From Heyndrickxia ginsengihumi (GTDB taxonomy: Bacteria > Bacillota > Bacilli > Bacillales > Bacillaceae_C), in contig NZ_JAAIWK010000004.1 in assembly GCF_011008565.1 (NCBI RefSeq), positions 62,001-126,000 of the forward strand: a DNA stretch of 64,000 bases. Direction: 5' to 3'. Of the stretch, positions 4,998 to 59,194 are shown piece by piece. The position numbers were made by a program, and so were the translations under genes. A model generated the notes under the pieces. The model was not told where the DNA came from, searched no databases, and was given only the letters and a program-made list of their open reading frames with translations. Numbering within the stretch: position 1 is the first letter of the stretch; every line of letters begins with the position of its first letter.

Positions 4998-5025
4998 TAA
5001 ACAATTACTAAATTTGTCGATATAA
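4998..5025 (+). promoter_or_regulatory. Sigma-D promoter for hag
   Basis: TAAA at 4998-5001, a 15-base spacer and TCGATATAA at 5017-5025 match the sigma-D consensus with one change. The predicted start of transcription near 5032 gives a structured leader of about 90 bases before the flagellin ATG. Confidence 0.88.
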
Positions 5026-5120: not shown

Positions 5121-5933
5121 ATGATTATCAATCATAATATTGCAGCGTTAAACACATTAAACAAATTAAATGCTGCTTCAAATGCACAAAGTAAGGCAAT
5201 GGAAAAATTATCTTCAGGTCAACGTATTAACTCTGCAGCTGACGATGCAGCAGGTCTTGCAATTTCTGAAAAAATGCGTTCACAAATCCGTGGTTTGGAT
5301 CAAGCATCAAGTAACGCACAAGATGCAAGTTCATTAGCTCAAACAGCTGAAGGTGCATTAAACGAAACAACTGATATTCTACAACGTATGCGTGAATTAG
5401 CAGTTCAAGGTGCTAACGATACGAATACTGACGAAGACCGTCAGCAAATCCAAACAGAACTTGATCAATTAACATCTGAAATCGACCGTATTTCAACAAC
5501 AACACAATTTAACACACAAAATCTTTTAGATGGAAGCTTTAAAGGAACATTCCAAGTTGGTGCAAATGCAGGTCAAATTATTACCTTCTCTATCGGAACA
5601 ATGAATTCAGCTGCTCTGTTTTCATCAGCAAGCATCAGCGTAGGATCGAATGCTAATGCAAGTGCGTCAATTTCCTATATTGATGGTGCAATTAAGAAAG
5701 TTTCAACACAACGTGCTAAATTAGGTGCTTTGGAAAATCGTCTAGATCACACAGTAAACAATTTAACTACTTCTTCAGAAAACTTAACATCTGCTGAATC
5801 ACGTATAAGAGATGTTGATATGGCTCAAGAAATGTCTGAAGAAACTAAGGACTCTATCCTTTCACAGGCTGCACAAGCAATGCTTAGCCAAGCAAATCAA
5901 CAGCCACAACAAGTGTTACAATTGTTGCGATAA
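5121..5933 (+). CDS. hag: Flagellin
   Basis: The filament subunit, exported without a signal peptide. The D0/D1 ends are canonical: [20 protein letters not shown] at the N-terminus, [20 protein letters not shown] near residues 30-49, and the C-terminal [20 protein letters not shown]. At 270 residues it is shorter than the 304 of B. subtilis because the exposed middle (around residues 165-190) is almost absent. That short segment is rich in Ser/Ala/Asn and could carry O-linked glycans. Codon use is strongly biased to favoured codons, as for an abundant protein. Control is by sigma-D and by CsrA/FliW through the leader. Two hairpins follow the stop. Confidence 0.98.
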
Positions 5934-5944
5934 TATAGTATACG

Positions 5945-6013
5945 TCTCCTTCTTTTTAGAAGGAGATTCAATAAAATACCGTGGTGTTTTAAATATCACG
6001 GTATTTTATTGAA
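5945..6013. terminator. Double hairpin terminator after hag
   Basis: First hairpin: a 9-base-pair stem (TCTCCTTCT, loop TTTT, AGAAGGAGA) at 5945-5966. Second hairpin: 5967-5983 is the exact reverse complement of 5997-6013 (17 pairs), with a 13-base loop. A-rich and T-rich flanks inside the second stem would let it work in both directions. It insulates the very strong hag transcript from the glycosyltransferase gene that starts 28 bases later. Confidence 0.85.
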
Positions 6014-6040
6014 TCAAAAACGTATTTAATGAGGGATATT

Positions 6041-9000
6041 ATGAAACCATTTGTTTCTTTATGCATGATAGTAAAAAATGAAGAAAAAGTATTAGGCCGT
6101 TGCTTAGAGTCTGTTAAGGAGAATGTTGATGAAATTGTAATAGTTGATACTGGTTCAACAGATTCAACAAAAGAAATTGCTTCAAATTATACTGATAAAA
6201 TATATGATTTTAAATGGACGGATAGTTTTGCAGATGCAAGAAACTTTGCACAATCAAAGGCAACTGGAGAATGGATTCTTGTATTGGATGCAGATGAATA
6301 TTGTGATTCAGAAAACCTTAAAACTGCGATTCATGAGCTTAAAACAAAGGATAAAGATATTGACGCATATGAAGTGAAAATTTATAATTTTACCGGATAT
6401 TCTGGGGAATCTATTGTTCAAAATGTTAGTATTCGATTATATAGAAATGATGAGACGATTGGATATTATAGAGCAATACATGAGCAAGTTTCGAAAAAAG
6501 AAGGTGAGTTAAAGACAGATGTTTCATCTTTGGTTCTTTATCACTCAGGTTATCTAGTTGGAGTAATTAAGAGTAAGCAGAAAAATGAAAGAAACTCTAA
6601 ATTAATCGATAAAGAAATTAAGACATCTGGAAATAGTGCATTTGACTATTTTAATTTAGGAAATGAATATCGTTCTGTAGGAAACGTGGAGAAAGCATTG
6701 GAGTCATATATCAATGCTTATAAGAATAAACCAGATATTCGATATAGTTGGGTAGCCTTTGCGATTGTTCAAATTATTAATTGCTTATGTGATCTACATA
6801 GGTATTTAGATGCGCTTCATGTTATTGGCGATGCAGAATTACTTTATCCGACTTCACCAGATTTTAAATTTTTTAGAGCTAAAGTATATTTTGATCAACA
6901 TCGTTTCGACGACGCAGCAGTTGTGTTAGAGGAAGTAATCGAAAATAAAGATAAATATCAATACTGTATTACTAGTGTTGATTTTTTAGAGTATCGACCA
7001 CATCAGATGCTTGGATTGATATATAAACACAAAAATGATAATGATAAGGCAGTTTATCACTTTGCAAAGGCACTAAGTAAAAATAAATTTTGTAATGTTT
7101 CTCTTTTCAATTTAATTGAGATATTAACAAATAACTGTAGTTTGGCTGAGGTAGAATCTTTCATTCAAAATAATGAGTTTATAACAAATGAAAATGAATT
7201 ATGTAAGTTTATTAAACTTTTTATATCTTTATCACAATTTGATCTAGCTAATCAATATATTCAAAAATTGAAAAATGATGGACTAATTCACCATGGATTT
7301 GCTATGAAATTACAGCTTGTGCAAGGAAATTATTCAATGATGGATGAATTTTTCAAAACAGATACGATCAATAATTTGAACTTGTTAATCAATAAAGGAT
7401 GTTTAGATTTTTATGATCTTGTTTTATATAGTTTAACAACCAATGATTCTGATAGAATAGCTAGCTTATTAATAAGTTTGATAAATGATGAGGAGAAAAA
7501 GCAGTTATTAAACTTTTTATTTAATAGTCAAAAACCGAGTAAAATTATTAAAAATGATCTGCTAGAGCTTGTTGAAAGAACTTTGCAAGTTAAAAATATA
7601 AAATGGTTTACAGTACTTGCTCAAAAAATAGATGCATTTCCTGCAATTTATCAACCTGTGGGGCATTTATTGTACCAATATAATTTTAAAAACGAGGCTG
7701 TTCAAATATATAGTAAGATTAAGAATACCTACTATGAAGAACAAACATTTGTGAATTTAATTGAGTACCATAGTAGCAATGGCAATTTCTTAGTTGCCAA
7801 GGATCTTATTACAGAATCAATAGAGATTGGATATACTGATTTTAGAATTTTTGAATATGCACTGAAATTGGACGGTTACTTTGCAAAAACTGATGGTTGG
7901 AATATTAATGAAATTGTTAACAATGCTTTTTCACACTATCCAGGTAGTCAAAGTTTAGGATTATTATATAATTTAGTTCAACAGCAATCACAAGGTAACA
8001 AAGGTAATTCTAATCAATTGACGGTCGGCTTTTTCTTGGAAACTACTTTTCATTATTATGTATATGAATCAATTATTAATGAATTATTAAATAAAGGTGT
8101 TAATTGTCACCTTGTAATTAATGACTATTTTCAAGAACAATCTGAAACAAGCTATATGTATGATGATTTAATGTCCTTTATTCAAAGCTTAGATAGAAAT
8201 GATATTGAAGCTTTTGCTGTTTCTATGGTAAAAGAAAGTCAATTTAAATATGATTGCATGGTAAGCTGTTATTATTCCGTACATTTGAATGAGATAGCAA
8301 ATAAACATGTTAGAGTTATGTACGGATTAGCTAAAGATAATTGGAATTTTTCTTGGTGGAATGTTTTCTATGACAAAATTCTATGTTACGGAAATTATGA
8401 TTACAGAAAATTAAATATCGATGATAATAGTGTAATTATTGGTAATCCAAAATTCGATAAATGGTTTAGAAAAGAATTTGATATTGAGAGAACTAAAGAA
8501 AAATTACTAATCGATGAAAATAAGAAAACTATTTTATATGCACCAACTTATGGTCATTTAAGTTCAATTGATGATTGGATTGACGATGTTAAGGCTTTAA
8601 ATGATGACTATAATATCATTATAAAAATGCATCATGGTACAGCATATAGAGAGAGTGAAACATATCGTCGCGAAATGATAATGAGTAGTTTTAAAAATAT
8701 AACTAGTGACCCTAGTGATCTACTTTCTCTTTTTGCAATATCCGACTTTGTTATTACAGATAATAGTGGAATTATATTTGATGCCATCTTAGCAGAAAAA
8801 AATATATTGTTATTAAATACAAATTACAATACGTCTCATAAAGATATGGGTAATGAGATAAAAATTAGAGAGACAATCATAAATTTAGATAAAGGTTATG
8901 ATCTTAGAAGATATCTAGAAAATGAAAGTATTTTTAAACGTCAAAAAGATAAATTATCTAGCATAGTTTCAAATATGTATCATTTTAGAGATGGTAATTC

Positions 9001-9109
9001 TGGAAGTAGAGCTGCAGATGAAATTATTCGCCTTTTGAATCAGGAACAGTCAGCAACTGAAGAAAATAAATTTTTATATAGTCTTAGAAGGAGAGTTTTT
9101 GGAATCTAG
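6041..9109 (+). CDS. Fusion glycosyltransferase: GT2 + TPR + CDP-glycerol transferase-like domain
   Basis: A 1022-residue protein with three parts. Residues 1-230 are a GT2 (GT-A) domain of the SunS-like type: VSLCMIVKNEEKVL at the start, VDTGSTDSTKE and the metal-binding LVLDADEY near residue 84. Residues 200 to about 600 look like helical TPR repeats (NLGNEYRSVGNVEKALESYI). Residues 660-1022 resemble the GT-B domain of TagB/TagF glycerophosphotransferases (ILYAPTYG near 832; DFVITDNSGIIFDA near 903, where TagF has DYSS). No signal peptide or membrane segment is seen, so it is cytoplasmic. ATG at 6041 is preferred because GAGGG stands 5 bases before it and overlaps an in-frame ATG at 6029. 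Codon use is far more AT-rich than the flagellar genes. Its place after hag suggests it glycosylates flagellin, but the substrate is unproven. Confidence 0.8.
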   Translation: MKPFVSLCMIVKNEEKVLGRCLESVKENVDEIVIVDTGSTDSTKEIASNYTDKIYDFKWTDSFADARNFAQSKATGEWILVLDADEYCDSENLKTAIHELKTKDKDIDAYEVKIYNFTGYSGESIVQNVSIRLYRNDETIGYYRAIHEQVSKKEGELKTDVSSLVLYHSGYLVGVIKSKQKNERNSKLIDKEIKTSGNSAFDYFNLGNEYRSVGNVEKALESYINAYKNKPDIRYSWVAFAIVQIINCLCDLHRYLDALHVIGDAELLYPTSPDFKFFRAKVYFDQHRFDDAAVVLEEVIENKDKYQYCITSVDFLEYRPHQMLGLIYKHKNDNDKAVYHFAKALSKNKFCNVSLFNLIEILTNNCSLAEVESFIQNNEFITNENELCKFIKLFISLSQFDLANQYIQKLKNDGLIHHGFAMKLQLVQGNYSMMDEFFKTDTINNLNLLINKGCLDFYDLVLYSLTTNDSDRIASLLISLINDEEKKQLLNFLFNSQKPSKIIKNDLLELVERTLQVKNIKWFTVLAQKIDAFPAIYQPVGHLLYQYNFKNEAVQIYSKIKNTYYEEQTFVNLIEYHSSNGNFLVAKDLITESIEIGYTDFRIFEYALKLDGYFAKTDGWNINEIVNNAFSHYPGSQSLGLLYNLVQQQSQGNKGNSNQLTVGFFLETTFHYYVYESIINELLNKGVNCHLVINDYFQEQSETSYMYDDLMSFIQSLDRNDIEAFAVSMVKESQFKYDCMVSCYYSVHLNEIANKHVRVMYGLAKDNWNFSWWNVFYDKILCYGNYDYRKLNIDDNSVIIGNPKFDKWFRKEFDIERTKEKLLIDENKKTILYAPTYGHLSSIDDWIDDVKALNDDYNIIIKMHHGTAYRESETYRREMIMSSFKNITSDPSDLLSLFAISDFVITDNSGIIFDAILAEKNILLLNTNYNTSHKDMGNEIKIRETIINLDKGYDLRRYLENESIFKRQKDKLSSIVSNMYHFRDGNSGSRAADEIIRLLNQEQSATEENKFLYSLRRRVFGI

Positions 9110-9189
9110 ATTATATATAAGCTTTTTCTTAAAAGAATCTAAAATTTCATAGTCATTGAACTTATTTTAAAGAACAACATAACTCAAGG

Positions 9190-9234
9190 GAACCTTCTGG
9201 TGTTTATAATAAATGTAAGATATTCAGAAGGTTC
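9190..9234. repeat. Hairpin after the fusion glycosyltransferase
   Basis: GAACCTTCTG at 9190-9199 is the exact reverse complement of 9225-9234, with a 25-base loop. No T run follows on either strand, so it is not a standard terminator. It may protect the mRNA 3' end or be a remnant of deleted DNA. Confidence 0.5.
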
Positions 9235-9287
9235 ATATTGCCGCAAAATGAGTGACGAAAAATAATCGCTTAAAGGAATGTTTAATC

Positions 9288-9751
9288 TTGGTGAAAGGAA
9301 ACGTAAAAGTAAGTGTTATAGTTCCAATGTATAATGTAATGTAACTAAAGATCAAAATGATTTATTTGCACTTTTTAAACTTTCTGACTTTGTAATTACT
9401 GATAATATCAGTATGATTTTTGAGGCAATGTTGGCAAAGAAAAATATATTATTGCTAAATCCAGAAAGAAGCTTTCCAATTAATGATAATTCTGGAGAAA
9501 AACTTATTAGAGATAATATTATTAATTTAAGTAAGGGATCAGATATTCGTAATTATTTAAATAATATTGAACTATTTAATAAGCAAAATGAGCGGGTTGA
9601 AAACATAATTAATAAAGTATATCAACTTACAGATGGATTTTCAGGAAAAAGGGCGGCAATTGAAATTCTGAAATTGATGGATGAAGAAGCACGACAAAAT
9701 CAAGAAAATTATTTATTACGAAGTATTAGGCAACAAGTATTTGGTATTTAA
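9288..9751 (+). pseudogene. Decayed bifunctional GT2 / CDP-glycerol glycerophosphotransferase
   Basis: Bases 9291-9344 encode KGNVKVSVIVPMYNVM then stop, the exact start of a GT2 domain typical of two-domain GT2/CDP-glycerol transferases. From 9335 a different frame is open and encodes DLFALFKLSDFVITDNISMIFEA and the rest of a TagF-like C-terminus, ending at 9751. The junction lies near 9335-9345, so most of the gene was deleted and the two ends were joined out of frame. The C-terminal part closely resembles the intact fusion gene upstream (INLSKGSDIRNYLNN against INLDKGYDLRRYLEN; both end QVFGI/RVFGI). A 112-codon piece from 9413 could still be translated but lacks a sound ribosome binding site. 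Confidence 0.82.
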
Positions 9752-9809
9752 TGATTTCATCTTTTTTTCATCCTTTAGAATTAAGTATTTTAATATATGC
9801 TTATCTGGG

Positions 9810-9847
9810 AGGACTTTCTAATGTATTTATGAAAGTCCTTTTCTTTT
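9810..9847 (+). terminator. Terminator after the decayed glycosyltransferase
   Basis: AGGACTTTC (9810-9818) pairs with GAAAGTCCT (9831-9839), followed by TTTCTTTT. It ends the accessory glycosyltransferase transcript. Confidence 0.8.
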
Positions 9848-10097
9848 GTGAATATTTACGGAGATATACTAGTTGAGTTAATGAATTTAAATGAAAGAAA
9901 ATATGACTAACCTTACTAGTTCACTATTGTTTTATAGTTAATATAAAACAAGTTTTTTATAAACTCTAGCAAATTTTTCATAATAAATTAATTGACAAAC
10001 AAAGACATAACTAACAGACGATAAAAAAGCACATTTTCTATTTAGATAGAAAATGAAAAAATAGTTAAAGGGAAGCCCTTAATACGGGAGGTAAGAA
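9848..10097. other. AT-rich spacer with inverted repeat before the SGNH gene
   Basis: No gene is seen here. CATTTTCTAT at 10032-10041 and ATAGAAAATG at 10046-10055 form a perfect 10-base-pair hairpin with loop TTAG; a T run follows it only on the minus strand. CAAA (10000-10003), 14 bases, then ACGATAA (10018-10024) is a weak sigma-D-like site. GGGAGG at 10086-10091 is the ribosome binding site of the next gene. Confidence 0.45.
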
Positions 10098-11561
10098 ATG
10101 AAAATTACAAAAAAAGAAACAGTCTCAGCAGTCATAATGATAGACAAAATACACAATGTATTATCGGATAATGCAATGAAAGATGCTGAGTTCGTTAAAC
10201 TTGTACCTGTTGTTGCAAAAATATGTATCAAATTGCATCCCTTGTATCACAATGATGTGCATTTTATGGCTCTTTTTAACTATGTAATCCAGTTGCTTGC
10301 TACTTTTAAAAGCGTTCCTATCGTTCCAATAAGTAAATCAATGGATAATAAAAGGCGTAAGCTCCTTTCTCTTCTTGAGCAATTCGAACTTTTGCAATTT
10401 AAGGATGTTCGATTTCATATTTATTTATATAACTGTACAATTGGGGATCTACCGATTAATGGTAAATATGTGCACTCTATTACGAGCTTACCTAGCAATA
10501 CAAAAATACCGGTATCTATTCTTCAGTTTCAGGAAAGTAAGTCGGACTTTTCTGTATTAATTCATTCTGGTCAATTATCGAAAAATGATACAGCTTATGC
10601 AAATTTTTGTTTTCTACTAGAAGAAATTATGGACTCAATGAATGTCATAATTTCTGATTTGAAAAATCTTGATTATTACATGCGTGATAGACTTTACCTT
10701 GAAGCAAAATTAGAGAGTTTAAAAAAAAGATCAGATATTAGACTTTTGCTTGCAGGTTCCTCCTATACAATGTGTGGATTATTCGAAGAGCAAATGCCAT
10801 TACCTGCACGAAATGTTGCAATAGATGCACAGGATCTATACTACACATTAAAAACAATTCGTACTGCGCTTACTTATAATCCGAATATTACGCACTGTAT
10901 AATTTCATTTGCCTATTATTTTTGGGGATACGATTTATCTCTTTCAACTTCTATTTATCAATATAAACGTGTAACTGAAGTGAATTATCCTGTGTTTAAG
11001 GATAAACACAATTTTTCAGGAGACCCAATTGGAGAAACACAGACTTTTCTAACATCTATTACCCCTCTTAAAAAAAGTCTTTTTTCATTTGAAACATGGG
11101 CAGGTCAATATATTGATATTATCAAAAATAATTTGGCAGATTCACATTATTTTCCTTATCCGCGTGAGGACAGCGAAGTTCTTAAACATGATGATGTAAC
11201 CAATCGTGAGAAGGCATTAGAAAGAGCTGAGAGCCATAATAAGTTTTTTAAATATACTTCTACTGTTAAAGAGAATCAAAAATTGTTTGCTGATTTCTTA
11301 AAGGAAATGAATAACTATGGAATAAAAATTCTTCTATATGTACCTCCTGTAACAGAATTTTATCGAAACAGCATTAATCCATGTTTAATTTCCGACTTCT
11401 ACGCTTGTATGGAGCCACTTAAGGCAAACTATCATTTCAAATTGATAGACTTATTTAATTCAGATGCCTTTGAAAACACTGATTTTGCGGATTATGATCA
11501 CCTAAATGATCTAGGTGCAAGGAAGCTTGCGGAAATTTTGGTTCATGAGTTGGAGTTTTAA
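10098..11561 (+). CDS. SGNH/GDSL-like protein in the flagellin glycan region
   Basis: A 487-residue protein not assigned to a named gene. The first 200 residues form a helical domain of unknown role. From residue 214 there is an SGNH-fold signature: LLLAGSSYTMCG carries the candidate nucleophile Ser (block I), and DYDHLNDLGARKL near residue 465 carries the catalytic Asp-x-x-His (block V). Such domains de-acylate or O-acylate sugars. No signal peptide or membrane helix is visible, so a cytoplasmic role on activated sugars or on flagellin before export is more likely than wall modification. The gene is AT-rich like the glycosyltransferase region, stands alone with GGGAGG before the ATG, and lies between two flagellar operons. 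A function in flagellin glycan modification is inference from position. Confidence 0.65.
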   Translation: MKITKKETVSAVIMIDKIHNVLSDNAMKDAEFVKLVPVVAKICIKLHPLYHNDVHFMALFNYVIQLLATFKSVPIVPISKSMDNKRRKLLSLLEQFELLQFKDVRFHIYLYNCTIGDLPINGKYVHSITSLPSNTKIPVSILQFQESKSDFSVLIHSGQLSKNDTAYANFCFLLEEIMDSMNVIISDLKNLDYYMRDRLYLEAKLESLKKRSDIRLLLAGSSYTMCGLFEEQMPLPARNVAIDAQDLYYTLKTIRTALTYNPNITHCIISFAYYFWGYDLSLSTSIYQYKRVTEVNYPVFKDKHNFSGDPIGETQTFLTSITPLKKSLFSFETWAGQYIDIIKNNLADSHYFPYPREDSEVLKHDDVTNREKALERAESHNKFFKYTSTVKENQKLFADFLKEMNNYGIKILLYVPPVTEFYRNSINPCLISDFYACMEPLKANYHFKLIDLFNSDAFENTDFADYDHLNDLGARKLAEILVHELEF

Positions 11562-11858: not shown

Positions 11859-12170
11859 TTACCAATAATATCCAGGTAATCCATACCCATACCCGTAAGG
11901 ATAACCACCATATAAAGCAGGTCCAAGCAAGGCTGAAGTAGCAAGCCCACCAACCAGCCCTCCTAAGAACGGACCGCCAAATCCAAATCCGAATGGTCTG
12001 CCAAATCCGAATGGTCTGCCAAACCCGAATGGTCTGCCAAATCCGAATGGTCTACCGAATCCGAATGGTCTACCGAAGCCAAAAGGCCTTCCAAATCCAA
12101 TTGGTTGTCTTTCATCTCCATAATATTCATTCACATCATAATAGGGCCCTTCTTGATAAACTTGATTCAT
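11859..12170 (-). CDS. GFGRPF-repeat, Gly/Tyr-rich small protein, probably sporulation-related
   Basis: A 103-residue protein of low complexity. An acidic, Tyr-containing N-terminus (YYDVNEYYGDERQP, residues 10-23) is followed by six GFGRPF hexapeptides (about residues 26-61), a hydrophobic Gly/Leu/Ala stretch (FLGGLVGGLATSALLGPALY) and a Tyr/Gly tail (YGYGYGLPGYYW). No catalytic domain is seen. The composition resembles spore coat or spore-associated Gly/Tyr proteins, but no named family is recognised. The start is supported by GAGGAGG 9-15 bases upstream. The promoter matches sigma-E or sigma-K rather than sigma-D, although the gene sits between flagellar operons. Expression in the sporulating mother cell is inferred. 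Confidence 0.7.
   Translation of the reverse strand: MNQVYQEGPYYDVNEYYGDERQPIGFGRPFGFGRPFGFGRPFGFGRPFGFGRPFGFGRPFGFGFGGPFLGGLVGGLATSALLGPALYGGYPYGYGYGLPGYYW
11987..12094 (-). repeat. Six 18-base tandem repeats coding GFGRPF
   Basis: Units start at 11987, 12005, 12023, 12041, 12059 and 12077 (plus-strand form AATCCGAATGGTCTGCCA). The first two are identical and the third has one change. The fourth and fifth match each other, with two changes at the end. The sixth is diverged. Near-identity of the first units points to recent slippage expansion; the array stays in frame. Confidence 0.9.
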
Positions 12171-55443: not shown

Positions 55444-55836
55444 ATGAAAAAAGTAATCACATATGGCACATTCGATTTGCTTCATTGGGGACATATTAAT
55501 TTGCTAAGAAGAGCAAAAGAACTTGGTGATTATTTAATTGTAGGTTTGTCTTCTGATGAATTTAATCAAATTAAAAATAAAAAATCTTATCATAGCTATG
55601 AAAACAGAAAAATGATTTTAGAAGCGATCCGCTATGTAGATGAAGTAATCCCGGAACATAATTGGGAACAGAAAATTGAGGATGTTCAAAAGCATAATAT
55701 TGATGTTTTTGTTATGGGCGATGATTGGAAAGGAAAATTTGACTACTTGAAAGAATATTGTGAAGTCGTTTATTTACCAAGAACCGTAGGCATTTCAACA
55801 TCAAAAATTAAAAATGATTTATTTTCTGTGAAATAA
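55444..55836 (+). CDS. tagD: Glycerol-3-phosphate cytidylyltransferase TagD
   Basis: It makes CDP-glycerol, the building block of poly(glycerol phosphate) teichoic acid. The 130-residue protein has the nucleotidyltransferase motif YGTFDLLHWGHINLLRRAKE (about residues 7-26, HWGH active site) and RTVGISTSKIKND (about 114-126, the ISTSxI motif). GGGAGAG precedes the ATG. Its stop overlaps the start of the next gene by one base. Confidence 0.97.
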   Translation: MKKVITYGTFDLLHWGHINLLRRAKELGDYLIVGLSSDEFNQIKNKKSYHSYENRKMILEAIRYVDEVIPEHNWEQKIEDVQKHNIDVFVMGDDWKGKFDYLKEYCEVVYLPRTVGISTSKIKNDLFSVK

Positions 55837-57026
55837 TGGCTAGAGAATTATTTGTTACCATATACTTGTTGTTCTTTCGCATTTTATTTTTAGTATGCAA
55901 ATTATTTCCATTGCAAAAAAAAATTGCGTTCGTTGTGTCGTTTAAACAGAACAACTTATATGTATACAAAGAAATTAAAAAGCAGCAAATTCCTGTAAAG
56001 ATTGCTTTTATGTGTACTTCTTCCTGTTATGATAATGTTAGAAAAGAATTACCAACAGAAGAAGTACGCATGTTTGGTATTAACCGTCCGTTTGATTTTC
56101 TTAAAAGCATCTACCATCTTGCTACATCAGAATATGTGGTGGTAGATAATTACTACGGATTTTTGGCTGCTGTTCAATTTAAAGATGGCGTTGAGTGTAT
56201 CCAATTATGGCATGCTGCTGGCGCAATTAAAACATTTGGTTTAAAAGATCGTAATATTCATCATCGCAGTAACAGAGCACTAAAAAGATTTAAAAAGGTT
56301 TATTCTCAATTTCATAAGGTCGTTGTCGGTTCTGATACAATGAAGCACATTTTCATGGAAGCATTCGGTCTTCCTTATGAAAATTTTTTATGCACGGGTG
56401 TTCCTAGAACCGATTTTTTTTATGATGAAAAATTGAAATCTACCATTATTAAAAAATTATATGATGCCAATCCTGAATTAAGAAACAAAAAGATCATTTT
56501 ATATGCCCCAACATTTCGGGATGATGAATTAGATCATTTTCAATTGATGCTAGATGTAGAAAAAATGTTTAATGAATTACATCAAGATCATGTATTGCTC
56601 ATTAAGTTGCATCCGGCAATCAGACATCATTTAGAATTAGAGGACTATAATGGGTTTGTATTTGATTATTCATACTATAAAGATGTGAATGAGCTATTAT
56701 TAATTACAGATATTTTAATTACAGATTATTCATCGATTCCTTATGAATTTTCAATTTTGCAACGGCCGATGATTTTTTATCCATATGATTTGCAAAAATA
56801 TGAAGAGAAGCGTGGATTTTGGGAAACATATGATAAAATGGTTCCAGGACCAGTCGCATTCGACACAAATCGCGTTATTCAGCTTATTAAACATAAACAA
56901 TTTGACATACATTTGATCGCGGATTTTTCAAAATCCTGGAATACTTATTCAACAGGGAAATCAAGTGAAAAATTGGTAAAGTATCTTTATCAACATGAGG
57001 GAGATACGATTGTTGAGAGGAGTTAA
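55836..57026 (+). CDS. tagB: TagB-like glycerophosphotransferase (teichoic acid primase)
   Basis: A 396-residue peripheral membrane enzyme of the CDP-glycerol glycerophosphotransferase family. It would add the first glycerol phosphate to the ManNAc-GlcNAc lipid. The hydrophobic start (residues 5-25) binds the membrane. Catalytic-type motifs are LWHAAGAIKTFGLKDR (His about 127), ILYAPTFRDDELD (about 227), LLIKLHPAIR and LITDYSSIPYEFSIL (about 296). Length and position directly after tagD support TagB rather than the longer polymerase. Translation is coupled to tagD. Confidence 0.9.
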   Translation: MARELFVTIYLLFFRILFLVCKLFPLQKKIAFVVSFKQNNLYVYKEIKKQQIPVKIAFMCTSSCYDNVRKELPTEEVRMFGINRPFDFLKSIYHLATSEYVVVDNYYGFLAAVQFKDGVECIQLWHAAGAIKTFGLKDRNIHHRSNRALKRFKKVYSQFHKVVVGSDTMKHIFMEAFGLPYENFLCTGVPRTDFFYDEKLKSTIIKKLYDANPELRNKKIILYAPTFRDDELDHFQLMLDVEKMFNELHQDHVLLIKLHPAIRHHLELEDYNGFVFDYSYYKDVNELLLITDILITDYSSIPYEFSILQRPMIFYPYDLQKYEEKRGFWETYDKMVPGPVAFDTNRVIQLIKHKQFDIHLIADFSKSWNTYSTGKSSEKLVKYLYQHEGDTIVERS

Positions 57027-57034
57027 GAATACAT

Positions 57035-59194
57035 ATGGTAGAACAGACGTTCAAAAGATGTACATTAAAAGAGTTGAGAATTGAACGTGATGATTATGTG
57101 CTTGATATATATGTTCCAACTCGTAAAGTATCAGAAGACAGTATATTATTTGTAAACATGATTGAAAGATATACAGAAAAAGAAGTAACTCTTGCTGCAA
57201 ATGAAATAGAAAGAACAGATGAACTTATTTTAATTCAGGCGAGAATAGAAAAACGTCAATATGAGCAGTTGATGAGTGATAATACTTTCTGGGATGTTTA
57301 TATTATATCTGAACAAGAAAATGATGTGGATACAGAAGAAGATAGTGATAGTGAAGCACCAAAAATAACTAAGTTTCGTGTGAAAAGCAATCAACAATAT
57401 TTGGAACTATTATATACACATCAAAAAGAAATAGGAAAATTGTGGATACCATATGCAACAAATAAACAAAACCTATCATTCAAGATAAAAGAGCCACATA
57501 TCATTGCGAGAGTAGAAGATGCTATTCTTGATAAAAACGGTATATTGACGCTTAAAGGGTTTGCAATTGATCCTTTAGAGAAAGATGTTATGTTGGAAAA
57601 AAATCTTGTTCTACAAGATGCAAATCATGAATTTGAAAAGAAGTACCCAGTTCAAACAGTTGAACGTCCAGATTTAGCAGAACAGTATGGTGATGGCGGG
57701 AAAACCTACAATTTTGCCGGTTTTACGGTTCAAGTGAATGTCATTGATTTAATTGAACGTATCGACGATAAAATTAGAATCAAGGCATATATTGAAATGC
57801 CGATCAATGGAGTGCCTGTACTAAGTTCACGCCTTAAATATGTTATCCATCATAAGCCGTATGCTGCTCAACGATATGTTAAAAAGGTAAATCAACAAAA
57901 GAAAAGAATTTCGTTAGCACGAACAAAAAAAGCAAAATATTTACGCTTGACAGTTGATGACTATTCTCTCATCCGTAGCGCTAAATCACTTGTTAGAAGG
58001 AAATTGATCGGGTTTAAGAAAAGTAAACAAATCAAAAAGACATATAAGTTAGCTTTCAAAATCATTGGTACATTACCGGCTAAGAAAAATGTAGTTATGT
58101 TTGAAAGTTTTCTTGGAAAGCAATATAGCGATAATCCTCGTGCGATTTACGAATACATGAAAGAGCACCATCCAGAGTTCAAACTGTATTGGAGCATTGA
58201 TAAAAGATTTATTCATAATTTTGAAGGAAAAGATTTAATATACATTAACCGCTTTTCGATTAAATGGTTATTTGCTATGGCGCGAGCTCGTTATTGGGTG
58301 ACGAATAGTCGGATGCCATTATGGATTCCGAAGCCAAAACATACAATTTATTTGCAAACATGGCATGGAACACCGTTAAAAAAATTAGCTGCCGATATGG
58401 ATGAAGTTCATATGCCAGGTACAACGACAAGTAAATATAAACGGAATTTCTTGAAGGAAGCTAGTAATTGGGATTATTTAATTTCTCCAAATGCCTACTC
58501 GACAGAAATTTTCCGTCGAGCATTCCAATTTGAAAAAGAAATGTTAGAAACTGGTTATCCGAGAAATGATGTATTGTATAATGAAAATAAAAAAGAAACG
58601 ATCGAAGCATTTAAAGTAAAATATGGATTGCCACTTGATAAAAAAGTCATACTGTACGCCCCAACTTGGCGTGATAATCAATTCTATGGAAAAGGTCGAT
58701 ATAAATTTGACTTAGCCCTTGATTTAACAATGTTAAAAGAGCGTCTTGGCGATGAGTATATTATTGTGCTTAGGATGCACTATCTTGTTGCTGAAAACTT
58801 TGACTTAACGCCATATACAGGATTCGCCTATGATTTTTCAAATCATGAAGATATTCGCGAACTGTATCTAGTGGCTGATTTACTAATTACAGATTACTCG
58901 TCTGTGTTTTTTGATTATGCGAATTTAAAACGACCAATGATTTTCTTTGTTTATGATATTGATGATTATCGTGATAATCTACGTGGCTTTTATTTCGATT
59001 TTGAAGAAAATGCACCAGGACCTTTAGTAAAAACAACTGAACAAGTAATCGTGGAGATTCGCAAGTTAGAATCGAACGGATTTACACTTTCAGAAACATT
59101 TAATGCATTCTATAATAAATTTTGCTATTTAGAGTCTGGACATTCTTCACAAAAGGTTGTGGATCGTGTATTTCGGGGAAGGAAAGACATATGA
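57035..59194 (+). CDS. tagF: Teichoic acid polymerase TagF
   Basis: A 719-residue poly(glycerol phosphate) polymerase (746 in B. subtilis 168). The N-terminal 330 residues form an immunoglobulin-like or spacer region of low conservation. The GT-B catalytic part has LQTWHGTPLKKLAADMDEVH (catalytic His about 447), MPGTTTSKYKRNFLKEASNW, VILYAPTWRDN (about 538), VLRMHYLVAENFDL and LITDYSSVFFDYANLKRPMI (about 619). Adjacent TagD and TagB point to a glycerol- rather than ribitol-type polymer. It starts 9 bases after tagB and ends overlapping tagG. Confidence 0.94.
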   Translation: MVEQTFKRCTLKELRIERDDYVLDIYVPTRKVSEDSILFVNMIERYTEKEVTLAANEIERTDELILIQARIEKRQYEQLMSDNTFWDVYIISEQENDVDTEEDSDSEAPKITKFRVKSNQQYLELLYTHQKEIGKLWIPYATNKQNLSFKIKEPHIIARVEDAILDKNGILTLKGFAIDPLEKDVMLEKNLVLQDANHEFEKKYPVQTVERPDLAEQYGDGGKTYNFAGFTVQVNVIDLIERIDDKIRIKAYIEMPINGVPVLSSRLKYVIHHKPYAAQRYVKKVNQQKKRISLARTKKAKYLRLTVDDYSLIRSAKSLVRRKLIGFKKSKQIKKTYKLAFKIIGTLPAKKNVVMFESFLGKQYSDNPRAIYEYMKEHHPEFKLYWSIDKRFIHNFEGKDLIYINRFSIKWLFAMARARYWVTNSRMPLWIPKPKHTIYLQTWHGTPLKKLAADMDEVHMPGTTTSKYKRNFLKEASNWDYLISPNAYSTEIFRRAFQFEKEMLETGYPRNDVLYNENKKETIEAFKVKYGLPLDKKVILYAPTWRDNQFYGKGRYKFDLALDLTMLKERLGDEYIIVLRMHYLVAENFDLTPYTGFAYDFSNHEDIRELYLVADLLITDYSSVFFDYANLKRPMIFFVYDIDDYRDNLRGFYFDFEENAPGPLVKTTEQVIVEIRKLESNGFTLSETFNAFYNKFCYLESGHSSQKVVDRVFRGRKDI

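Follow-up and report, generated by a model that had tools for sequence, protein, structure and literature searches.

The flagellin of Listeria monocytogenes is modified by GmaR, a protein of 637 amino acids (aa; PMC9638930) that is both a transferase of O-linked N-acetylglucosamine (GlcNAc) and the antirepressor of MogR, and orthologs of gmaR have already been noted in some strains of the Bacillus cereus group (PMC7793685). In C. difficile Type A, the GlcNAc of the flagellin FliC is described as joined by a phosphodiester to N-methyl-threonine, for which the TagF-like protein CD0244 is required (PMC10714395), and the phosphodiester-linked glycan of P. aeruginosa b-type flagellin is reported to require one gene, FgtA/PA1091, that combines a GT2 domain with a TagF-like phosphotransferase (PMC11833859, PMC10714395). 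Teichoic-like glycopolymers have been proposed for the flagellin of enterobacterial flag-2 systems (PMC6993521). Here we analyzed a 64,000-nucleotide stretch of the Heyndrickxia ginsengihumi genome (contig NZ_JAAIWK010000004.1, positions 62,001 to 126,000, forward strand; hereafter the window), in which the gene that follows the flagellin gene hag encodes, in one chain, a GmaR-like N-terminal half and a C-terminal domain (C-domain) of the TagF fold. We lean toward reading this fusion as a two-step enzyme, which would add an N-acetylhexosamine (HexNAc) and then a phospho-headgroup to flagellin, the likeliest headgroup being glycerol phosphate drawn from the cytidine diphosphate (CDP)-glycerol made by TagD.

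The reading frame (6029/6041-9109, plus strand) is intact and encodes 1022 aa if translation starts at the second ATG, or 1026 aa if it starts at the first. A sequence-only reading of this DNA had described one chain of 1022 residues at 6041-9109, joining GT2, tetratricopeptide repeat (TPR), and TagB/TagF-like GT-B domains and lying 108 bases after hag. The open frame is as described, and Pfam recovered Glycos_transf_2 (PF00535, residues 6-117, E 1e-24), TPR repeats, and Glyphos_transf (PF04464, residues 792-995, E 8e-16, 58.3 bits against a gathering cut-off of 22.1); the gap to hag is 107 bases. A model of the whole protein, built from 29 sequences (mean predicted local distance difference test score, pLDDT, 86.8; predicted template modeling score, pTM, 0.61), begins with a domain of mixed alpha/beta type, continues as a helical solenoid (residues 181-652), and ends with another alpha/beta domain. 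With the whole model as query, the best Foldseek match was GmaR (Protein Data Bank entry 7x9r, template modeling score 0.84 by target length); SunS and ThuS came next, and TagF appeared from rank 20. Structure prediction had been proposed as a check of the domain assignment, and it gave GmaR 7x9r, then SunS, for the N-terminal part and TagF as the top fold match of the C-domain. Full-length relatives, 61%, 54%, and 52% identical, were found in three other genomes of the family, and the fusion is thereby present in 4 of the 34 family genomes (the window's genome, G030, G016, and G022).

The N-terminal half is homologous to Listeria GmaR over residues 1-613 and closer to it than to SunS. In phmmer searches, residues 1-198 matched GmaR entry 22ao (E 5e-63 to 1e-62) and residues 145-612 (to 613) the GmaR scaffold of entry 7x9r (E about 1e-40 to 2e-40), whereas the match to SunS was weaker (E about 2e-20 to 3e-20) and the NCBIfam SunS model TIGR04195 fell far short of its cut-off (86.3 bits against 350). 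The GT2 domain had initially been called SunS-like; the similarity exists (E 3e-20), but GmaR (E 1e-62) is the better primary label, and we rejected SunS-type S-glycosylation because of the low NCBIfam score and the much stronger GmaR matches. Like GmaR, the fusion joins a GT2 domain to a TPR, linker, and antirepressor scaffold and sits in a flagellar locus, gmaR being one gene from flagellin in the Listeria record. Unlike the fusion, GmaR is devoid of a TagF-like domain, its gene lies upstream and not downstream of flagellin, and it has a partner, MogR. The MogR model (PF12181) finds MogR in the Listeria record, is silent in 14 named genomes, and matched none of the 34 family genomes, the window's genome among them. 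Because MogR was found in none of the 34 while the model works in Listeria, the scaffold most likely serves glycosylation and not antirepression, and an antirepressor role was rejected. The N-terminal part also matches 32 records of a phage collection; among the matches listed are unannotated records labelled as Listeria phages, PaBG, and SPbeta-type phages.

A flagellin gene lies within 1.5 kb in 28 of the 30 loci that match the GmaR part (L039 and L042 are the exceptions, and in L052, one of the 28, the flagellin match is in two pieces). Orthologs located mostly away from flagellin genes had been named beforehand as the result that would speak against a flagellar role, and the outcome was the opposite. 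We read 20 loci in detail, chosen from the better matches, with weaker GT2-only matches not counted as orthologs. In all 20, the gene or gene pair is preceded by a flagellin open reading frame (ORF), in some cases unusually short or cut by the contig edge, and 17 of the loci have the GmaR part immediately behind flagellin; in L068-L070, a GT4-type glycosyltransferase is next to flagellin and homology is limited to the C-domain. Five of the 20 loci (L068-L072) encode the C-domain on its own behind hag, directly after a GmaR-like gene in L071, and after a GmaR-like and then a GT4-type gene in L072. Other arrangements were found behind GmaR, namely a fused canonical TagF-like domain (L075, L076), fused GT4 and methyltransferase domains (L073, L077), and two GT4 domains (L078). 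This alternation between fused and separate genes is good evidence that the GmaR part and the C-domain act in one pathway.

The flagellins themselves offer an observation that is only suggestive. Compared with 23 others, the 16 flagellins encoded beside GmaR genes have a mid-region richer in Ser/Thr (0.235 vs. 0.188, p 0.003) and poorer in acidic residues (0.074 vs. 0.150, p 9e-5), by statistics that ignore kinship. From this comparison we left out 10 duplicates, 3 flagellins of the L069/L070 type (L151 on the basis of sequence likeness alone), and 2 long ones; most of the "others" were assigned by genome-level search, and they include the second flagellins of L063, L067, L068, and L071. Such a composition would fit a modified, perhaps acidic-capped surface. 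In two genomes of the same genus (G032, G033), the fusion was not matched at E 1e-20 and flagellin had its best match in an ORF of 383 and 423 aa, respectively, longer than the 270 aa of Hag, which suggests that flagellin and modification gene may be exchanged together.

The C-domain adopts the fold of TagF and belongs to a distinct subfamily. Its own model (pLDDT 92.7) has TagF as top fold match (Foldseek E 6.6e-14), and structural comparison by VIA gave a Z score of 23.8 and a root mean square deviation of 3.5 over 316 aligned residues, with 16% identity across the structural alignment. It shares with TagF and TagB the GT-B fold and the second active-site histidine, but not the WHG and DYSS motifs. 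DYSS, which we take to be a motif of the Glyphos_transf family, is present, together with WH[GA], in all five canonical relatives. Among 43 sequences (the window's C-domain and 42 relatives), none has DYSS and 29 have DNSG, found at residues 907-910 of the fusion; D[N/S/T/Y]S[G/S/M] and YAPT[YF]G occur in all 43. The observation of DNSG in place of DYSS, made in the sequence-only reading, thus stands and is a trait of the subfamily; its corollary, that the domain may use another donor, does not follow from DNSG alone; what DNSG marks is a subfamily in which the WHG histidine is also a tyrosine and whose neighboring genes point to several donors activated by CDP or cytidine monophosphate (CMP). 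A Tyr in a YG/YS motif occupies the place of WHG in all 43 sequences, as placed by motif position, and the second essential histidine (H584 of TagF) is kept in a [KR][LM]H[HNP] motif, also in all 43, that aligns with TagF and TarL. In the domain model, Tyr103 comes after strand 95-101 and His206 after strand 199-204, and we read both, by their position in the model, as probably lying where the two TagF histidines are expected. The Bacilli relatives scanned score 43-60 bits with PF04464, above its cut-off.

A Tyr and HH pattern of this kind has a precedent in Cps7A of Actinobacillus pleuropneumoniae, a PF04464 protein described as transferring one glycerol 3-phosphate from CDP-glycerol to 3-deoxy-D-manno-oct-2-ulosonic acid (Kdo), with Y94 at the place of TagF H444 and H198/H199 at that of H584 (PMC11666461). 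The likeness of Cps7A/CpsA to the C-domain rests on motif pattern and published description, and their role, unlike the one considered here, is capsule priming on Kdo; Cps7A would nonetheless be the closest biochemical precedent that we found for this pattern.

The subfamily extends well beyond the Bacilli. Scanning GTDB species genomes with two short conserved peptide patterns, a procedure that misses members with neither pattern, we obtained 42 loci: 7 from Bacillaceae, 1 from Sporosarcina, 33 of enterobacterial type, and 1 from a distant actinobacterial metagenome-assembled genome (MAG; L131, 23% identity). Locus L109, although labelled Chryseobacterium, carries flag-2 genes of enterobacterial type, groups with the Citrobacter locus in L097, and is probably a contamination. 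In a tree of 43 rows, from which the MAG was excluded and in which L071 was included, the 10 Bacilli and 33 enterobacterial rows split with full support, and the four GmaR fusions cluster weakly (60/7); the program warned of some long branches. Most enterobacterial loci of the subfamily lie among flag-2 type flagellar genes, and in named loci the window's C-domain is 34-39% identical to theirs. These flag-2 GT2/TagB-like proteins, found with TagD, thus share the C-domain subfamily, frequent fusion to another half (a GT2 in L033), and a mostly flagellar setting with the Heyndrickxia protein. They differ from it in that N-terminal half, in which a scan of L033 found no GmaR scaffold, and in being Gram-negative; the function ascribed to them is so far a proposal (PMC6993521). 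Turning to viral contigs for a phage origin of the C-domain, we found 46 stretches with the pattern, none of which passed, and this origin was rejected.

The donor that such a domain may use was approached through neighboring genes. The fetched stretch contains a TagD-like gene in 29 of the 42 C-domain loci, all 29 of enterobacterial type; TagD is 20 bp from the C-domain gene in L099 and 41 bp in L124, two loci in which no flagellar ORF was recognised. In L099 (Candidatus Fukatsuia symbiotica, 7333-11528), choline-kinase, nucleoside triphosphate (NTP)-transferase, C-domain, and TagD genes follow each other in a row. The association with TagD is not exclusive to the C-domain, since TagD is common in flag-2 loci at large (235 strains with TagD and 65 with TagB in a survey of 592 loci; PMC6993521). 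We looked for genes of six donor types in the 20 Bacilli loci and saw them only at two fused loci, L091/L063 and L093/L064; a third other fused locus (L062/L090) stops at the contig edge. The first has a phosphoenolpyruvate (PEP) mutase fused to a cytidine triphosphate (CTP)-transferase domain (410 bits against 320) and a phosphonopyruvate decarboxylase (Ppd; 476 against 313), along with a MobA-type NTP transferase and an iron-type alcohol dehydrogenase (Fe-ADH). These phosphonate genes stand behind the flagellin modification gene of a Bacillus sp. (L063 16251-19422; L091 14344-18741), and the distant MAG locus L131 repeats the cassette; we found no work in the open-access literature that links flagellin to phosphonate and PEP mutase. 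The second has an IspD-type CTP transferase fused to a short-chain dehydrogenase/reductase (SDR), and because this enzyme scores above threshold with the IspD domain model (191.6 against 181.3) and also with that of the D-ribitol-5-phosphate cytidylyltransferase subfamily (166.7 against 166), we read its product as possibly CDP-ribitol. A methyltransferase gene adjoins the C-domain in three Bacilli loci (L092, L094, L100).

In the genome of the window, the tagD gene listed in table 1 is the only one of five PF01467 matches to align with TagD along its length. Searching this genome for other donor pathways, we found no true PEP mutase, the one match (L137) carrying a KKCGH motif that we take to be a methylisocitrate lyase signature; no CDP-ribitol synthase of the L093 type, since neither of two IspD-family matches extends into the SDR part; and, for the L063-type NTP transferase, one weak match only (E 0.003, 30% over 85 residues).

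In the mechanism that we propose, the single chain would be a bifunctional flagellin-modifying enzyme. Its GT2 domain would move a HexNAc, most likely GlcNAc from uridine diphosphate (UDP)-GlcNAc, onto Ser/Thr residues of the short exposed mid-region of Hag, as GmaR homology and gene position suggest, with the helical scaffold gripping flagellin during this step. The GT-B domain would then move a phospho-headgroup from a CDP-activated donor onto a sugar hydroxyl, releasing CMP and leaving a negatively charged phosphodiester cap. CDP-glycerol from the wall-teichoic-acid TagD would be the likeliest donor in this genome, giving flagellin-O-HexNAc-phosphoglycerol, and the cap, by analogy with Cps7A, would be expected to be a single unit instead of a polymer; a polymer-building activity like that of TagF is possible but not favored, because the Tyr/HH pattern belongs to a single-addition enzyme. 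A first sugar followed by phosphodiester extension, with the TPR in between, was already the idea of the sequence-only reading; it survives as a proposal, and a TPR-type scaffold does separate the two catalytic domains, but the N-terminal part is better called a GmaR homolog. We are highly confident that the fusion modifies flagellin, and consider it probable that the C-domain transfers a phospho-headgroup from a CDP or CMP donor; whether the headgroup in this genome is glycerol phosphate seems to us evenly balanced.

Several results weigh against this reading. The catalytic histidine of the TagF WHG motif is missing, WHG or WHA occurring in none of the 43 sequences, and the equivalence of the Tyr rests on motif position, profile-profile comparison having left the WHG strand unaligned. 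The enterobacterial example L033 is below the PF04464 cut-off (15.5 bits) and the distant relative L131 matches no Pfam family. UDP-GlcNAc 2-epimerases come close behind TagF in fold (VIA Z 22.0 and lower, against 23.8) and are sub-threshold Pfam matches of the C-domain; we rejected an epimerase identity, which has no neighborhood support. The evidence for donors has gaps too: the neighboring TagD-like proteins score below the curated TagD cut-off in L033 and L099 (114 and 123 bits against 165), which makes CDP-glycerol uncertain there, TagD is nearby in none of the eight named Bacilli loci, the interval from the fusion to fliD in the window has no recognised gene for donor synthesis, and none of the six CDP-donor gene types tried was seen in the five loci with a separate C-domain (L068-L072).

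The alternative that survives best keeps the two steps and changes the headgroup, which would then be a CDP-/CMP-activated group made elsewhere in the genome (of CDP-N-methylthreonine type, CDP-ribitol, CDP-choline, or a phosphonate). Close relatives do adjoin other donor genes (for phosphonate at L091, CDP-ribitol-like at L093), L099 has choline-kinase and NTP-transferase genes besides TagD, and the C. difficile and P. aeruginosa enzymes have been proposed to use CDP-(methyl)threonine (PMC10714395, PMC11833859). This nonetheless appears rather unlikely in a genome that has a curated TagD and in which PEP mutase, the SDR part of the IspD matches, and a convincing NTP transferase were not found.

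A second possibility is that the C-domain is an ordinary nucleoside diphosphate (NDP)-sugar transferase adding a second sugar, its likeness to TagF reflecting the GT-B fold and nothing more. Lack of both WHG and DYSS in the subfamily would agree with this, as would the fold matches to 2-epimerases and sugar transferases and the GT4-type transferases, fused or separate, that occupy the place behind GmaR in L072, L073, L077, and L078. We regard it as distinctly unlikely given the PF04464 scores of the window protein and the Bacilli relatives scanned, the TagD-like genes in 29 of 42 loci and other CTP-transferases at L091, L093, and L131, and the KxH histidine kept in all 43 sequences. It seems more improbable still that the enzyme is a leftover that lost its partner or donor supply along with the deleted second gene at 9291-9748, flagellin then carrying the first sugar only or nothing: a shortened second copy does lie directly downstream and no donor gene was recognised locally, but the 1022-aa frame is intact and the subfamily-invariant Tyr761, His864, and DxSG motif are all kept. 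That the gene is chiefly a motility regulator like Listeria GmaR, with glycosylation secondary, is hardly tenable: the sequence and fold match does extend over the antirepressor domain, but MogR, the target described for GmaR, was found in none of the 34 family genomes by a model that finds it in Listeria.

The two-step enzyme that we favor has its nearest functional relatives in the C. difficile and P. aeruginosa systems. CD0240 and CD0244 are likewise a GT2 and a TagF-like phosphotransferase encoded beside flagellin, behind fliC, but as two separate genes, with cd0241-0243 in the operon and an N-methyl-threonine phosphate as product. FgtA/PA1091 is described as combining a GT2 and a TagF-like part in a single chain, but acts with a deoxyhexose core, an N,N-dimethylthreonine phosphate cap, and the adjoining pa1088-1090, and no such genes were recognised here. 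In particular, none of the phosphoserine-phosphatase-like, nucleotidyltransferase, and methyltransferase families of the C. difficile/FgtA pathway was found in the plus-strand ORFs above 100 aa between the fusion and fliD. A teichoic-acid-like decoration of the filament had been thought not to be described in Bacillus; we found none among the open-access papers listed, but the kind is known from CD0240 with CD0244 and from FgtA/PA1091, and a teichoic-like glycan has been proposed for flag-2 (PMC10714395, PMC11833859, PMC6993521). Given these precedents, it is not a new idea that one protein may place first a sugar and next a phosphodiester on flagellin. What is new to us is that the fusion contains the GmaR scaffold, that its C-domain belongs to a subfamily in which Tyr replaces WHG and which flag-2 systems share, and that donor genes are swapped.

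Table 1. Features of the window discussed in the text (positions in the window; strand + or not applicable,.)
Feature	Position	Strand	Basis
hag, flagellin, 270 aa, Ser-rich mid-region, likely substrate	5121..5933	+	PF00669/PF00700; mid-region composition
24-bp perfect stem-loop in the interval between hag and the fusion gene	5965..6015	.	RNA fold -31.3 kcal/mol, z -10.3
GmaR-TagF-like fusion gene, 1022 aa	6041..9109	+	ORF call; predicted model, pLDDT 86.8
GT2 domain, residues 1-170, GmaR/SunS type	6041..6550	+	PF00535; PDB 22ao match
Helical TPR-type scaffold, residues 181-652, matching most of the TPR, linker, and antirepressor domains of GmaR	6581..7996	+	PDB 7x9r match; model helices
GT-B domain, residues 659-1022, TagF fold; MYGLAK / YAPT[YF]G / KxHH / D[N/S/T/Y]SG; Tyr761, His864, D907-G910	8015..9106	+	
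Remnant of a second gene of similar type: weak GT2-like start (by eye); past a stop, in another frame, a 137-aa C-terminal domain, 48% identical	9291..9748	+	
487-aa protein with SGNH-like motifs (GSS, DYDHLN)	10098..11561	+	59% identical relative in L067
tagD, glycerol-3-phosphate cytidylyltransferase, probable CDP-glycerol source	55444..55836	+	TIGR01518, 210.7 bits against a cut-off of 165.4
tagB-like, canonical WHA and DYSS, comparison sequence	55836..57026	+	
tagF-like, canonical WHG and DYSS, comparison sequence	57035..59194	+	

The fusion gene is embedded in a flagellar locus of the order flgM, flgN, flgK, flgL, fliW, csrA, and hag, followed, behind the fusion gene, by flaG, fliD, fliS, and fliT; the names were given from ORF translations, with family models backing hag, flaG, fliD, and csrA. 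Upstream of hag, at 4998-5023, we noted by eye a putative SigD-like promoter (TAAA, 14 bases, GTCGATAT). The stem-loop behind hag is absent from the output of a terminator scan; it is possibly the 3' end of the hag mRNA or an attenuator, which may hold the enzyme far under the level of flagellin. The plus-strand ORFs above 100 aa from the fusion to fliD are the remnant, the 487-aa protein, and flaG. The remnant likely results from a deletion between the GT2-like start and the C-domain piece. The GSS and DYDHLN motifs of the 487-aa protein, presumably SGNH signatures, and its relative in L067, which adjoins a GT2 and TagF gene located behind flagellin, make it a possible glycan-modifying enzyme; no Pfam or NCBIfam family matched it, and a search against plasmids returned zero matches. 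Between the glycan genes and flaG, the minus strand (11859-12170) encodes a small protein with repeated FGRPFG units. A cluster of wall-teichoic-acid type, with tagA-, tagD-, tagB-, tagF-, and tagG-like genes, lies at 54-60 kb of the window.

More tentatively, and with more doubt than conviction, we consider that the C-domain may define a family of headgroup transferases, dependent on CDP/CMP and for the most part tied to the flagellum, that Bacilli share with enterobacterial flag-2 systems. One fold would be served by swapped donor cassettes (TagD for glycerol phosphate, IspD-SDR for ribitol phosphate, and PEP mutase, Ppd, and Fe-ADH for a phosphonate such as hydroxyethylphosphonate), teichoic-like or phosphonate caps would cover the filaments, and the GmaR fusion of Bacillaceae would assemble the complete glycan in a single pass. 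If the two-step reading is true, a Gram-positive cell spends a wall-teichoic-acid precursor on the decoration of its flagellum, and one chain couples protein O-glycosylation with phosphodiester capping. Charged caps could influence the surface of the filament, the attachment of phages, and the way in which host receptors recognize it, and enzymes of this type would be compact candidates for putting glycerol phosphate, ribitol phosphate, or phosphonate on proteins. Finally, that a GmaR scaffold is encoded by genomes in which we found no MogR suggests that the thermosensing antirepressor of Listeria arose from a flagellin glycosyltransferase.

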